Assembly (NCBI GenBank): GCA_001767075.1
Contig: MEKX01000114.1
Location: 1,289-36,090, forward strand
Source: Acidobacteria bacterium RIFCSPLOWO2_12_FULL_54_10
GTDB lineage: Bacteria > Acidobacteriota > Terriglobia > 2-12-FULL-54-10
Direction: 5' to 3'
DNA length: 34,802 nucleotides
Shown in pieces: positions 13,044-17,525 of the stretch. The first letter of the stretch is position 1, and every line of letters starts with the position of its first letter. The notes beneath the pieces are model-generated. The model saw nothing but the letters and a program-made list of their open reading frames with translations, ran no database searches and was not told the origin of the DNA. The position numbers and the translations under genes are program-made.

Positions 13044-15470
13044 TCAAAATTCCCAATGCACGCCTGTCCGCACGGTAGCGCCCGGCGCCAGAAACCCGCC
13101 CTGATAATACTGGCGATCCAGCAGGTTTTCGACCTTCAGCACATAGCGCAAGCGGGACTCATCGGATTCCCGCAAAACCAGGCTTCCGGTCACATCCAGC
13201 AATGTGTATCCGGCAAAACGGTAAGTCTCCGATGGAATAGTGAAGACAATCCCAAAAGCCGGGTAATCGTAATCAGATACTGAATACCCTTGCAAATTCA
13301 GATTCACGCGGCGCGAAGGACTGACGTTGACTCCATAGCTGAACTGATGATCCGACAAACCTAAAACTCTGGTGGTCCCGGCTGAAGTCGCCGACGGCTG
13401 TATGGATTTCGTGAGCGTGTATGATGCATGCCACTGAAGGAATGCAGCCGGGCGCGACTCGGCGGAAATCTCCACGCCCCTGGCGTGGCCGCCTTGCAGG
13501 TTGACATACCCGAAGAAGCGGTCGAACGGGTCATTTTCTGGCGGGCCGAAATCAATGATGGTATTCAGATACGTATAAAAATACGTCGCGCTCATCTGAA
13601 GCTTTTCACGAAACAAAGACTGATCAATGCCGCCATCCGCGAAAACGGCTTTTTCAGCGCGCAGGCGCGGATCGCCAAAATACGACCGGAAGCCGCCAAA
13701 CTCGCCAGCGCCAAAGCGCTCGAACAGCGATGGCGAACGGTATCCGTTGCCGGCGTGGACCCGCACCTTGGTGCCCGTACGAGGAAAATAGTACGCGACA
13801 GCCGCGTCGCCGCTATGGGTCGCCGGAACATTCAGATCGGAGACAATGGCAAACGGGTTTGCCGGATCATTATTGAATCGCGGCTGGTCGAGATCGTACC
13901 GCTGCGCCCGGTACGCCAGATGGATGTGCAGCCGATGATCGAGCAGACGGGTTTGGTTTTGCAATTGGAGCGATAACGATCCCTGGGCCGCTTCGGTGCG
14001 CAATCCAAACACGGTTTGATCGAGTCGAGAATGATCGTAGCCCAGCGCGAAGTGCAGCGAGCTTTTCGCGTTCGCAAAGAAATTGTTGCGCCAGAAGAAC
14101 TCGTTCACTTCCCCGCGGAACCGCTGTTGATCCGGCGGGTTGGCGTCTTGAGCGCCCAGTTCCTTGGCAAGTGGCGACATGGCAGGTCCATCTTCGTCCA
14201 GCCTTCGCGGGTGAAAATTCTGAAATCCGACCGAATAATTCCAGTTTCGGTACGGACTGTGATCCCAGCGAACCGTTGCGCGCGCATACCGCACCTCTTC
14301 GCGAAAATCCGGGTCGTCCAATTGCGGGATGAAAGTTGCGCCCGGCCCCGGATAAGGAGTTGCGTTTCGCAGTCTCGACCCCGCTGCTAATGGCATCAAG
14401 CCCGGCACAGGCGTTGGACTTTCATTGAGCAGGAGAAATGCATCGGTTATCTGAAACCGTGCTACCAGGCGTGATTCCGAACTAGGTGCAATGGATGCGT
14501 ACGCGGAACCGGAACTGACGCGATACGGATCGTTCCCATCCTGTCCGCGCGTGTAATTGATGTGGTCCGCACGCAAGGAATAAGCAACTCTCCGCCCTTT
14601 TGTAAAGCCGCCGATTTCGCCGCCGCCGCGCAGCAGACCCAGCGATCCGCCTTGCAGGGAAATCGCTCCGCCGAGCGGTTTTCTCGGCTCTTGGGAAATC
14701 ATGTTGATCGCTCCGCCCATGGCGTTGGTGCCGTAGAGAGTGGAACCGGCGCCGCGAAGCACTTCAATACGATCCACATCGGTCGCCGTCAAGAACGATA
14801 AAAAAGGCCGCGCGGAGGTTTTTGTGTCCGTGGGGTCCAGCACCCGGAATCCATCCAGCAGCACCGCTGCATCCTCCGGACGCATTCCGCGCATACGATA
14901 TGCGGATAGCGCTCCTGGGCCTCCTTGCTGCTGCACTTGCAGCGATGGTATCTGCCGCAAACTCTCGTTTAACGTCAATGCATCCGAATTGATTAGGGTT
15001 TCCTGCGAGATCATGGACACCGACTTGGAAATTTCTTCCCACAATTCCGGCAGCTCCGAGGCAATGACGATCACGTGCTGGTCCAAGCCCGCAAGTTCCA
15101 ATTGCAGTTCGACATTCCCGGAGTCCGCCATGTTGATGCGGCGGCTAAGTTTCTGGAAGCCTGTTTTGGAGCATTCCACAACATACGATCCCGGCGCCTC
15201 CTGCTCGAATGCAAATCTGCCTTCTGCATCGGTTAGCAATTGTTTGCTGCGACCGGCACTGTCGTATAGCGTGACCGTGGCGGCGGCGACGCGCCCGCCG
15301 GAAGGGTCGCTGACCGTGCCGGAAAGTGATAGTCCATCGGCGGAAAATGTCGCCATGGGAATTAACAACAGGAAAAAACAGCAGATGATCCTGGTCCAAA
15401 AACGGCTGGCGGATCGAGAATTACTTGTAAACCAATTTTCCGAAGCAAAGTTCCGAGCGCAATTCTTCAT
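13044..15470 (-). CDS. TonB-dependent outer-membrane receptor (BtuB-like) with N-terminal carboxypeptidase-regulatory-like domain
   Basis: LSGTVSDPSGGRVAAATVTLYDSAGR; plug LNESLRQIPSLQVQQQGG...VDRIEVLRGAGSTLYGTNAMGGAINMIS; C-terminal VENLLDRQYYQGGFLAPGATVRTGVHWEF; downstream of cobalamin riboswitches. Confidence 0.92.
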   Translation of the reverse strand: MKNCARNFASENWFTSNSRSASRFWTRIICCFFLLLIPMATFSADGLSLSGTVSDPSGGRVAAATVTLYDSAGRSKQLLTDAEGRFAFEQEAPGSYVVECSKTGFQKLSRRINMADSGNVELQLELAGLDQHVIVIASELPELWEEISKSVSMISQETLINSDALTLNESLRQIPSLQVQQQGGPGALSAYRMRGMRPEDAAVLLDGFRVLDPTDTKTSARPFLSFLTATDVDRIEVLRGAGSTLYGTNAMGGAINMISQEPRKPLGGAISLQGGSLGLLRGGGEIGGFTKGRRVAYSLRADHINYTRGQDGNDPYRVSSGSAYASIAPSSESRLVARFQITDAFLLLNESPTPVPGLMPLAAGSRLRNATPYPGPGATFIPQLDDPDFREEVRYARATVRWDHSPYRNWNYSVGFQNFHPRRLDEDGPAMSPLAKELGAQDANPPDQQRFRGEVNEFFWRNNFFANAKSSLHFALGYDHSRLDQTVFGLRTEAAQGSLSLQLQNQTRLLDHRLHIHLAYRAQRYDLDQPRFNNDPANPFAIVSDLNVPATHSGDAAVAYYFPRTGTKVRVHAGNGYRSPSLFERFGAGEFGGFRSYFGDPRLRAEKAVFADGGIDQSLFREKLQMSATYFYTYLNTIIDFGPPENDPFDRFFGYVNLQGGHARGVEISAESRPAAFLQWHASYTLTKSIQPSATSAGTTRVLGLSDHQFSYGVNVSPSRRVNLNLQGYSVSDYDYPAFGIVFTIPSETYRFAGYTLLDVTGSLVLRESDESRLRYVLKVENLLDRQYYQGGFLAPGATVRTGVHWEF

Positions 15471-15473
15471 AAT

Positions 15474-15503
15474 CGTTCCTTTCGCCCTCGCAAAGAGGGA
15501 ACG
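15474..15503 (-). promoter_or_regulatory. Putative riboswitch expression-platform hairpin over the RBS
   Basis: CGTTCCctctttgcgagggcgaaaGGAACG just before ATTATG of the TonB receptor; the 3' arm holds the AAAGGA SD-like segment. Confidence 0.5.
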
Positions 15504-15514
15504 TGATGGGCCGC

Positions 15515-15688
15515 GGGACCGGTATCCTGACTTGCGACGGGATGCTGCTGCATCCAGGAGGCCTGCGCCTTCCCACCCTTTTCTGGCAGAGTAGTGGCTT
15601 CTTATTCAGGCCTCTTGCCGTCGCTCACAGTTGCGGGGCAGTGGCGGAATTGCACCGCCTTCCCGAGCATCCTGCAGCGGGGTTTAAG
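15515..15688 (-). ncRNA. Cobalamin riboswitch (proximal copy)
   Basis: Reverse complement contains GGGAAGGCGGTGCAATTCCGCCACTGCCCCGCAACTGTGAGC...AAGCCACTACTC...GGGTGGGAAGGCG...GCAAGTCAGGATACCGGTC, the classic B12-element order. Confidence 0.92.
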
Positions 15689-15837
15689 TTGTTAGTGGCA
15701 CCAGCCAAACAGACTTTGGAAAGATTGAAAAGGCATCTCGTACGAAATCTTTAACGCTGTTAGAAATTGGCCAGCGATAGTCTTTCGTGACGCAAAATGC
15801 TTATCGGCTCTTCCCTCGAAGCCGATCCAGCTTGGGG

Positions 15838-15976
15838 GTTCCTGGCAGGTCTCCTGGCTGATGCTTTTCCGGATTGAGCGCCTTCCCACCCTTTTCTTGC
15901 CGGGCAGTGGCTTGCTGCTCAATCCAACGCATTTACAGTGGCGGGGCCGCGCTGGCTTTTCACCAGTCTTCCCATT
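15838..15976 (-). ncRNA. Cobalamin riboswitch (distal copy)
   Basis: Reverse complement GGGAAGACTGGTGAAAAGCCAGCGCGGCCCCGCCACTGTAA...AAGCCACTGCCCGGCAAGAAAAGGGTGGGAAGGCGC...CATCAGCCAGGAGACCTGCCAGG. Confidence 0.92.
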
Positions 15977-16088
15977 TTGTCAGAACTGCACCATGAACGA
16001 TGCTCATCATGAACCAAGTTTGGCAGACTGTCAAGATGAGTCGTCTGCCCTTGCTCATCCACGCAGACTGCGCTAGTCTAGAATCATT

Positions 16089-16496
16089 ATGCAAATTCGC
16101 CTCAGTATGTTTTACCGAACACTCATTATATTTTCTCTCGGCATATTTTTAGCTGGTTGCAGCCAGAGTAGCAGCGATCCCAACGCGGCCATCCAAAAGG
16201 CGATTGAAGATCATTTGGCGAATCGATCCGATCTTTCCATCGGCAACATGGTGATGGAAATGAAAGATGTCCGCATCGACGGCGACCACGCTCAGGCCGA
16301 TGTGCTATTTCGCACCACATCCAATCCTCCCGCGCAGATGGCTTATACCTATCTCCTGCTCCAAACAGATGGCAAATGGGAAATTGAAACCGCACAGCCG
16401 AGCGGCGCCGATTCCTCTCATCCAACACCCGAGAATTCTGGCGTGGAGTCTGAAACTCTTCCCGAGGGGCAACCGCCGGCTCAGTCCCCTCATTGA
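16089..16496 (+). CDS. Small lipoprotein
   Basis: LIIFSLGIFLAGCSQSSSD lipobox (LAGC). Confidence 0.75.
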   Translation: MQIRLSMFYRTLIIFSLGIFLAGCSQSSSDPNAAIQKAIEDHLANRSDLSIGNMVMEMKDVRIDGDHAQADVLFRTTSNPPAQMAYTYLLLQTDGKWEIETAQPSGADSSHPTPENSGVESETLPEGQPPAQSPH

Positions 16497-16682
16497 TGCT
16501 GGGATATAGCTGACTATTTATCCCGTGTTATTTAGCAGCGCCAATTTATATCCTTTCCATTCTAGATACTCCGCTTTTACCAACCCTACCAAGCCGGTTA
16601 TCCGTATGTTAGTATGGGCTTTCGAACAGGAACCAGAATTACCTGCGCGGCAGGTATCATTTTTCTAGGGAGAGTTTCTTCC

Positions 16683-17525
16683 ATGGATGAAATAGAACCG
16701 GTACAGCCAGTCGAAGTCGATGAAGGAATGGGCGAGAAGCCCAAGCAGAGAACCTCCTACGAGCATATCCAGGTGGAGATTGTGGAAGGTGTTGCGCGGC
16801 TGACCATGAACCGGCCGCCTTATAATGTCCTGACCATCGCCATGATGGAAGAGATCGCCTACGCGATTGAACATTTGCGCGAGGAGCACCAGGTGCGGGC
16901 CATTCTGATGCAAGCGTCGCCGAGTTGCCAGGCTTTTTCCTACGGCGTGGCCGCAGAGGATTCCCGCCCCGACCGCGCTTTCCAGATGCTGGATGCTCTG
17001 CAAGCTGTATTTCGCAGCATGTTGGATATTTCCAAACCCGTGGTCACCGTCATCAACGGACCGGCGGTCGGCGGGGGCTGCGAATTGGCCGCGCTCGGCG
17101 ATATTCTCATCGCCACTCCCAAAGCTCGATTTGCCCAGCCGGAAATTCGGCTTGGAGTTTACCCGCCGGTCGCCTCCGTGATCCTGCCTCATATCATCGG
17201 CCACAAGCGCGCTATGGAAATGATTCTCACTGGCGAGCCATTAACCGCTCAAGACGCCCATCGGCTGGGTTTGGTAAGCCGTTTGGTTCCGGAAGAGAAA
17301 TTGGATGAAGAAGTTGCTAAACTTTTGACCAAAATCACGGATCAGAGCACTCCGGTATTGGAAATGGCCAAGAAAGTTCTTTATGACAGCATCGGGCTGC
17401 CCTTGGAAGCCGCCATGAAAAAATCCGTAGACCTTTATCTCAACCAATTGATGGATTTGAACGACGCCCAGGAAGGGCTTCGCGCGGCGGTCGAAAAAAG
17501 GAAACCCGTTTGGCAAAACAAATAG
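16683..17525 (+). CDS. Enoyl-CoA hydratase/isomerase family (possibly cyclohexa-1,5-diene-1-carbonyl-CoA hydratase-like)
   Basis: ARLTMNRPPYNVLTIAMMEEI, NGPAVGGGCELAALGDILIATPKARFAQPEIRLGVYPP. Confidence 0.85.
   Translation: MDEIEPVQPVEVDEGMGEKPKQRTSYEHIQVEIVEGVARLTMNRPPYNVLTIAMMEEIAYAIEHLREEHQVRAILMQASPSCQAFSYGVAAEDSRPDRAFQMLDALQAVFRSMLDISKPVVTVINGPAVGGGCELAALGDILIATPKARFAQPEIRLGVYPPVASVILPHIIGHKRAMEMILTGEPLTAQDAHRLGLVSRLVPEEKLDEEVAKLLTKITDQSTPVLEMAKKVLYDSIGLPLEAAMKKSVDLYLNQLMDLNDAQEGLRAAVEKRKPVWQNK

Follow-up and report, generated by a model that had tools for sequence, protein, structure and literature searches.

The TonB-dependent receptor gene in the analyzed stretch of DNA (the window; 34,802 nucleotides from Acidobacteria bacterium RIFCSPLOWO2_12_FULL_54_10) is preceded by two complete cobalamin riboswitches of separate ancestry, which likely exert serial OFF control by the same ligand, via the distal copy (A) and then the proximal copy (B), with B acting on translation. 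Both were found with cmscan as full-length matches to Rfam family RF00174 on the minus strand, A at 16033-15827 (96.6 bits, E 4.3e-23 over the whole window) and B at 15689-15500 (82.0 bits, E 6.3e-19 over the whole window), each covering model positions 1-189 of 189. The gathering score of the family is 31.5 bits, and each match lies over 50 bits above it, so that chance is excluded. Judged by these matches, A and B belong to RF00174, not to another family of its clan, and both have kept the P6 extension of the class-I type. No further credible RNA family was detected between 15400 and 16150 at a lax Rfam threshold, and A and B are the sole RF00174 copies found in the genome (2.95-Mb assembly, 88.6% complete by estimate). 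The first-pass annotation, which had been made from the sequence alone, was thus right in placing two complete B12 elements of the same orientation before the receptor gene. Its coordinates were less accurate: 15838-15976 is too short for the distal element (its outer stem, most plausibly, has its 5′ strand at 15998-15991), and the proximal one extends from about 15680 to 15511 instead of 15515-15688.

Same-ligand tandems are defined by two complete riboswitches spaced by less than 300 nt with no ORF between them; here, the spacer (15690..15826, minus strand) is 137 nt long and contains no gene, close to the ~150 nt without convincing gene noted before. The sole open frame between A and B, a 76-aa TTG ORF (15922-15692, minus strand), starts inside A and crosses the spacer; it showed no sign of coding and was dismissed as a gene. 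The region 15690-15836 folds better than shuffled sequences (z -2.33). The conserved block that the first-pass annotation had seen in both copies was recovered as well: the 20-nt AGAAAAGGGTGGGAAGGCGC (minus strand) lies in the P6 extension of A (within 15838-15976) and of B (within 15515-15688). At this site, other A copies of the window's family read CGGGATGGGAAGGCG; in the P6-extension hairpin, the window's A therefore looks B-like, as would result from gene conversion of a short stretch with B as the donor.

The two elements represent different subtypes. All 19 type B copies compared form one clade in the aptamer tree (SH 0.86) and are characterized by the core CACTGCCC-CGCAACTGT and the lack of a P2 arm, whereas the window's A clusters with the A copies of relatives G002, G005, and G006 (SH 0.945; 78-80% identical), support being modest for trees of 150-nt RNAs. 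The window's A and B are 55% identical over the columns compared, which, together with the tree, rules out a recent tandem duplication. By these comparisons, A and B are lineages that separated long ago, and several genera have retained both as neighbors. They also differ in position: most loci have B about 35-55 nt before the start codon, and most A copies are at least 150 nt from it.

The comparative check of the tandem layout proposed in the first-pass annotation came out in its favor. Same-strand A-B pairs with no gene between them were found in the window, in G017 (family f4) and G045 (family f6), in six species of genus g12 (family f7), and at locus L104. The genome survey gave 9 of 61 genomes, from 4 of 41 genera; L104 was confirmed separately. 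In G309, the second genome of g17, two copies on the same strand are separated by 335 nt. Most genomes compared are metagenome assemblies; the doublet of G046 resides on a single-contig chromosome of 5.1 Mb, so that an assembly artefact is not at issue there. In the receptor tree, the pairs fall into three separate clades of Acidobacteriota, that is, the window doublet together with the A-only orthologues of G002 and G005, the doublets of G017 and G045 together with the B-only G024, and the doublets of g12 and L104 together with loci having cobU between A and B (L041 and L053; the receptor piece of a third such locus, L106, was too short for the tree). In every pair, A comes first.

Aptamer A occupies 15827..15999 (minus strand), as delimited by the RF00174 match, by alignment with relatives of its family, and by its clade with their A copies. 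Its outer stem is most plausibly formed by 5′ GUUCAUGG (15998-15991) and 3′ CCAGGAAC (15845-15838) with seven of eight positions paired, and is in register with the family relatives in the alignment; the 5′ extension to 16033 in the Rfam match overruns a promoter-like site. This sigma70-like site, TTGACA-17-CATGAT (16006..16034, minus strand), lies directly 5′ of A and has 10 of 12 consensus matches, which is all that promoter calls are based on here. The search of 15400-16700 returned no other, with 1.1 expected by chance, so that the site, taken alone, is at chance level. At the equivalent position, G002 has TTGACA-17-GATGAT, and G005 and G006 have TTGACA-18-CAACAT and -CAATAT (assigned by eye); the six g12 species have TTGACG-18-TACGAT/TAGGAT immediately 5′ of A. 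When the pattern TTGAC[ACG]-16/18-NANNNT was applied to all loci, a full match was present 5′ of 21 of 51 A copies in first position, compared with 0.28 expected from mononucleotide shuffles (the loci are often related, and the counts not independent), and 5′ of none of the 15 B copies in second position. In a footprint of the g12 species, the -35 and -10 elements 5′ of A were conserved, and nothing comparable was conserved in the spacer. The promoter-like site before A, and the lack of one before second-position B, argue for a single transcript, which very probably spans both aptamers, and are the strongest sequence argument at hand against a start between them. Two observations had been named beforehand that would speak against joint control. 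Of one, a transcription start between the copies, no sign was seen in the window, where the sigma70-like pattern detected no promoter in the spacer (evidence from sequence only). The other, relatives with a gene between the copies, do exist, but in those checked there was no promoter-like site before B either.

The gene downstream of B (13044..15470, minus strand) encodes a TonB-dependent receptor of 808 aa with the Pfam domains CarboxypepD_reg (N-terminal), Plug, and barrel. It scored below the equivalog cut-off of TIGR01779, the TonB-dependent vitamin B12 receptor (105.7 versus 599.7 bits), and is, thus, of BtuB type by context, outside that equivalog. E. coli BtuB was among its best matches in a PDB sequence search, albeit over the plug region only. 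Among 80 loci encoding relatives of the receptor, nearly all with enough upstream DNA carry a cobalamin riboswitch in front, and at several of them the neighbors are CobU or a set of the BtuF/FecCD/ABC type. Upstream in the window lies a small, divergently oriented gene (16089-16496, plus strand) with a lipoprotein-like N-terminus (by eye), followed by a gene for enoyl-CoA hydratase. Methylmalonyl-CoA mutase, a B12 enzyme, was found in the genome; CobU, a B12-dependent MetH activation domain, and a FecCD (BtuC-like) permease were not, a provisional result at 88.6% completeness.

Candidate expression platforms were sought for both aptamers. Aptamer B (15511..15680, minus strand; CACTGCCCCGCAACTGT core) is followed by the hairpin CGUUCC...GGAACG (15474..15503, minus strand), whose predicted pairing takes in the Shine-Dalgarno region GAAAGGAA (15483-15476), and which presumably is the translational platform of B. 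In the local fold, this region has a mean unpaired probability of 0.11, and the best fold is at -17.0 kcal/mol compared with -10.9 kcal/mol for the fold leaving it free. Relatives with type B have hairpins of different sequence at the equivalent place, although the Shine-Dalgarno region was mostly unpaired in the local fold at 3 of the 10 other B loci tested (L104, G020, and G046). Together, the predicted pairing and the hairpins of the relatives support translational control by B. The core of the window's B is intact and its outer stem imperfect; J6/3 (about 15525-15519) reads GGAUACC, compared with GGAGACC in most other B copies and GGAAACC in L104. This unusual letter makes an altered ligand preference or affinity, or a loss, possible.

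For A, only a weak terminator-like site that is not conserved could be recognized. The hairpin GCUGG AUCGGCUUCGAGGGAAGAGCCGAU AAGC followed by AUUUUG (15799..15831, minus strand) sits right behind A, and many relatives of type A have a comparable hairpin at the equivalent place; its role as a terminator is uncertain. An equally good site arose in 3 of 100 shuffles, and the site is not conserved as a terminator. In other doublets, equally good shuffles were more frequent (G045, 41 of 100; L104, 43 of 100; G017 and one g12 species, 100 of 100), and no conserved intrinsic terminator was found behind A, by comparison with shuffles, in the doublet lineages tested. In contrast, A is followed by strong intrinsic terminators at single-A loci belonging to family f4 or to the Pyrinomonadaceae type. 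At seven Pyrinomonadaceae-like loci (L054, L057, L061, L062, L069, L110, and L115), the terminators seen after the A-type riboswitches consist of very long hairpins (-25 to -43 kcal/mol) with T-runs. A search for the L5-L13 kissing loop returned complements of L5 downstream that were 3-7 nt long and differed between relatives; the 7-nt match of the window's A in the spacer (CUUUUCA) was not used, as such a match is expected by chance in about 1 of 55 aptamers and 3 gave one.

The explanation which we favor, with moderate confidence, is that one transcript carries A and then B and that the BtuB-type receptor is made only if both are ligand-free. Transcription would start just 5′ of A, pass through A and then B, and encode the outer-membrane B12 receptor. 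Both aptamers would be class-I-like and, with cobalamin as their presumed ligand, OFF switches, a direction assumed from their class. Because the outer stem of B abuts the hairpin predicted to pair the Shine-Dalgarno region, bound cobalamin should lower translation. A would act earlier on the same RNA, perhaps via Rho, via RNA decay, or via the weak hairpin-AUUUUG behind it; as a convincing intrinsic terminator is absent behind A in the window's lineage, it would act otherwise than by one, or weakly. Requiring both aptamers to be ligand-free would amount to NOR logic on one ligand, with a steeper response. The tandem control of one receptor gene suggested in the first-pass annotation is supported by the doublets in other genera, by the promoter-like site before A only, and by the BtuB-type context.

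Other readings of the locus have less in their favor. B might be decaying or redundant, with A doing the work as in the A-only relatives of the family (G002, G005, and G006). In favor of this, these relatives retain a related ribosome-site sequence, and the window's B has an imperfect outer stem, the J6/3 change, and the lower score. We deem this unlikely, because 82.0 bits is inside the range of the other B copies (57.3-105.4), the core is undamaged, and the Shine-Dalgarno hairpin fits the start codon of the receptor in the window. Less likely still is a two-input switch in which the corrinoid or B12 derivative preferred by A differs from that preferred by B (e.g., AdoCbl versus MeCbl, or other cobamides). 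Their ancient separation and joint retention in several genera, the missing P2 arm of B, and the deviating J6/3 of the window's B could be taken in this sense, but both elements are assigned to RF00174 and not to a different family of the clan, the class-I type P6 extension is preserved in both, and no sequence feature shows a different specificity.

The least probable of these readings is that A remains from a gene since lost and has ceased to regulate the receptor, an alternative already raised in the first-pass annotation. Such a history is conceivable, since cobU (L041, L053, and L106) or three BtuF/BtuC/BtuD-like transport genes (the Pyrinomonadaceae loci L055 and L059, where the distal copy is A-like) lie between A and B in some relatives, and since neither CobU nor FecCD was found in the window genome. 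At this locus, however, the idea is not supported: the nearest receptor orthologues (G002 and G005, 53% and 46% identical) and the partial G006 carry type A alone before the same gene, which argues that the distal copy is no leftover in the window's lineage, and a lax Rfam search detected no degenerate second riboswitch in these relatives. Moreover, the window's A is undecayed, with intact core motifs, 78-80% identity to the A copies of its family, and a score within the 95.4-98.5 bits of the like copies therein, and no promoter-like site was found in the region other than the one preceding it.

As for the origin of the serial arrangement that we favor, the relatives with cobU or transport genes in the middle suggest that the pair belongs to a type of operon headed by one switch and carrying the other before btuB. 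The doublet probably derives from, or parallels, such operons with A at the head and B internal, and the comparison of loci suggests that doublets arise from A-gene-B operons as genes in the middle are lost or gained. The branch of the receptor tree that bears on whether the window gained B or G002 and G005 lost it has a support of 0.34. A broader scheme, which we put forward tentatively and hold to be rather doubtful, is a two-tier B12 control in Acidobacteriota, in which A would govern the whole transcript and the separately evolved B, perhaps preferring another corrinoid, the receptor cistron alone; the doublet would be the collapsed form.

Tandem cobalamin riboswitches as such are already known; less usual here are the old, separate subtypes in fixed order and the natural intermediates. 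Multiple aptamers occur in less than 1% of AdoCbl riboswitch leaders (PMC2258182), and 26 tandem AdoCbl doublets, termed pseudo-cooperative, have been reported (PMC9481103). As in these (PMC9481103, PMC2258182), a single gene in the window is preceded by two complete, serially arranged cobalamin riboswitches without an ORF in between; unlike in them, the pair consists of two old and distinct subtypes whose order is fixed, and only B has a recognizable ribosome-site platform, A being without a conserved terminator. The bi-mechanism SAM-II/SAM-V tandem (PMC9481103) likewise senses the same ligand twice, with the second unit at the ribosome-binding site, but its first unit comes with a clear terminator, and its units differ in structural class, whereas both units of the window are RF00174 and the mechanism of the first is putative. 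In the Bacillus clausii metE SAM-I/AdoCbl tandem, a NOR gate (PMC9481103, PMC2258182), two independent OFF riboswitches are also arranged in series, but respond to two ligands and both act on transcription termination. The AdoCbl riboswitch of E. coli btuB, which controls translation (PMC2258182), resembles B in that a B12 receptor gene is regulated via the ribosome site, but is a single unit; the L5-L13 kissing loop described for its class (PMC9600662) was not consistently found in the window or at the relatives' loci. In the open-licence literature, no report of cobalamin doublets in Acidobacteria was found.

Before homologous receptors, natural variants have A only, B only, A-B, A-cobU-B, or A-btuFCD-like-B. 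As these exist in related organisms, the purpose of stacking two switches for one vitamin is directly testable, and they suggest that riboswitch stacks can come from operon rearrangement, not duplication. At three A-only loci of family f1 (L042, L045, and L046), the ribosome site, at least 100 nt downstream of A, was observed to have a sequence similar to the B platform (CCTCTTTCCGGGGGCGAAAGGAG / CCTCCTTCCGAGGGCCAAAGGAG), possibly the footprint of a lost B. At four g12 loci (L035-L038), the A-B doublet is accompanied by a third cobalamin riboswitch, divergent and of type A, which lies back-to-back with it; in L035, this third element heads a gene for a periplasmic binding protein (BtuF-like).
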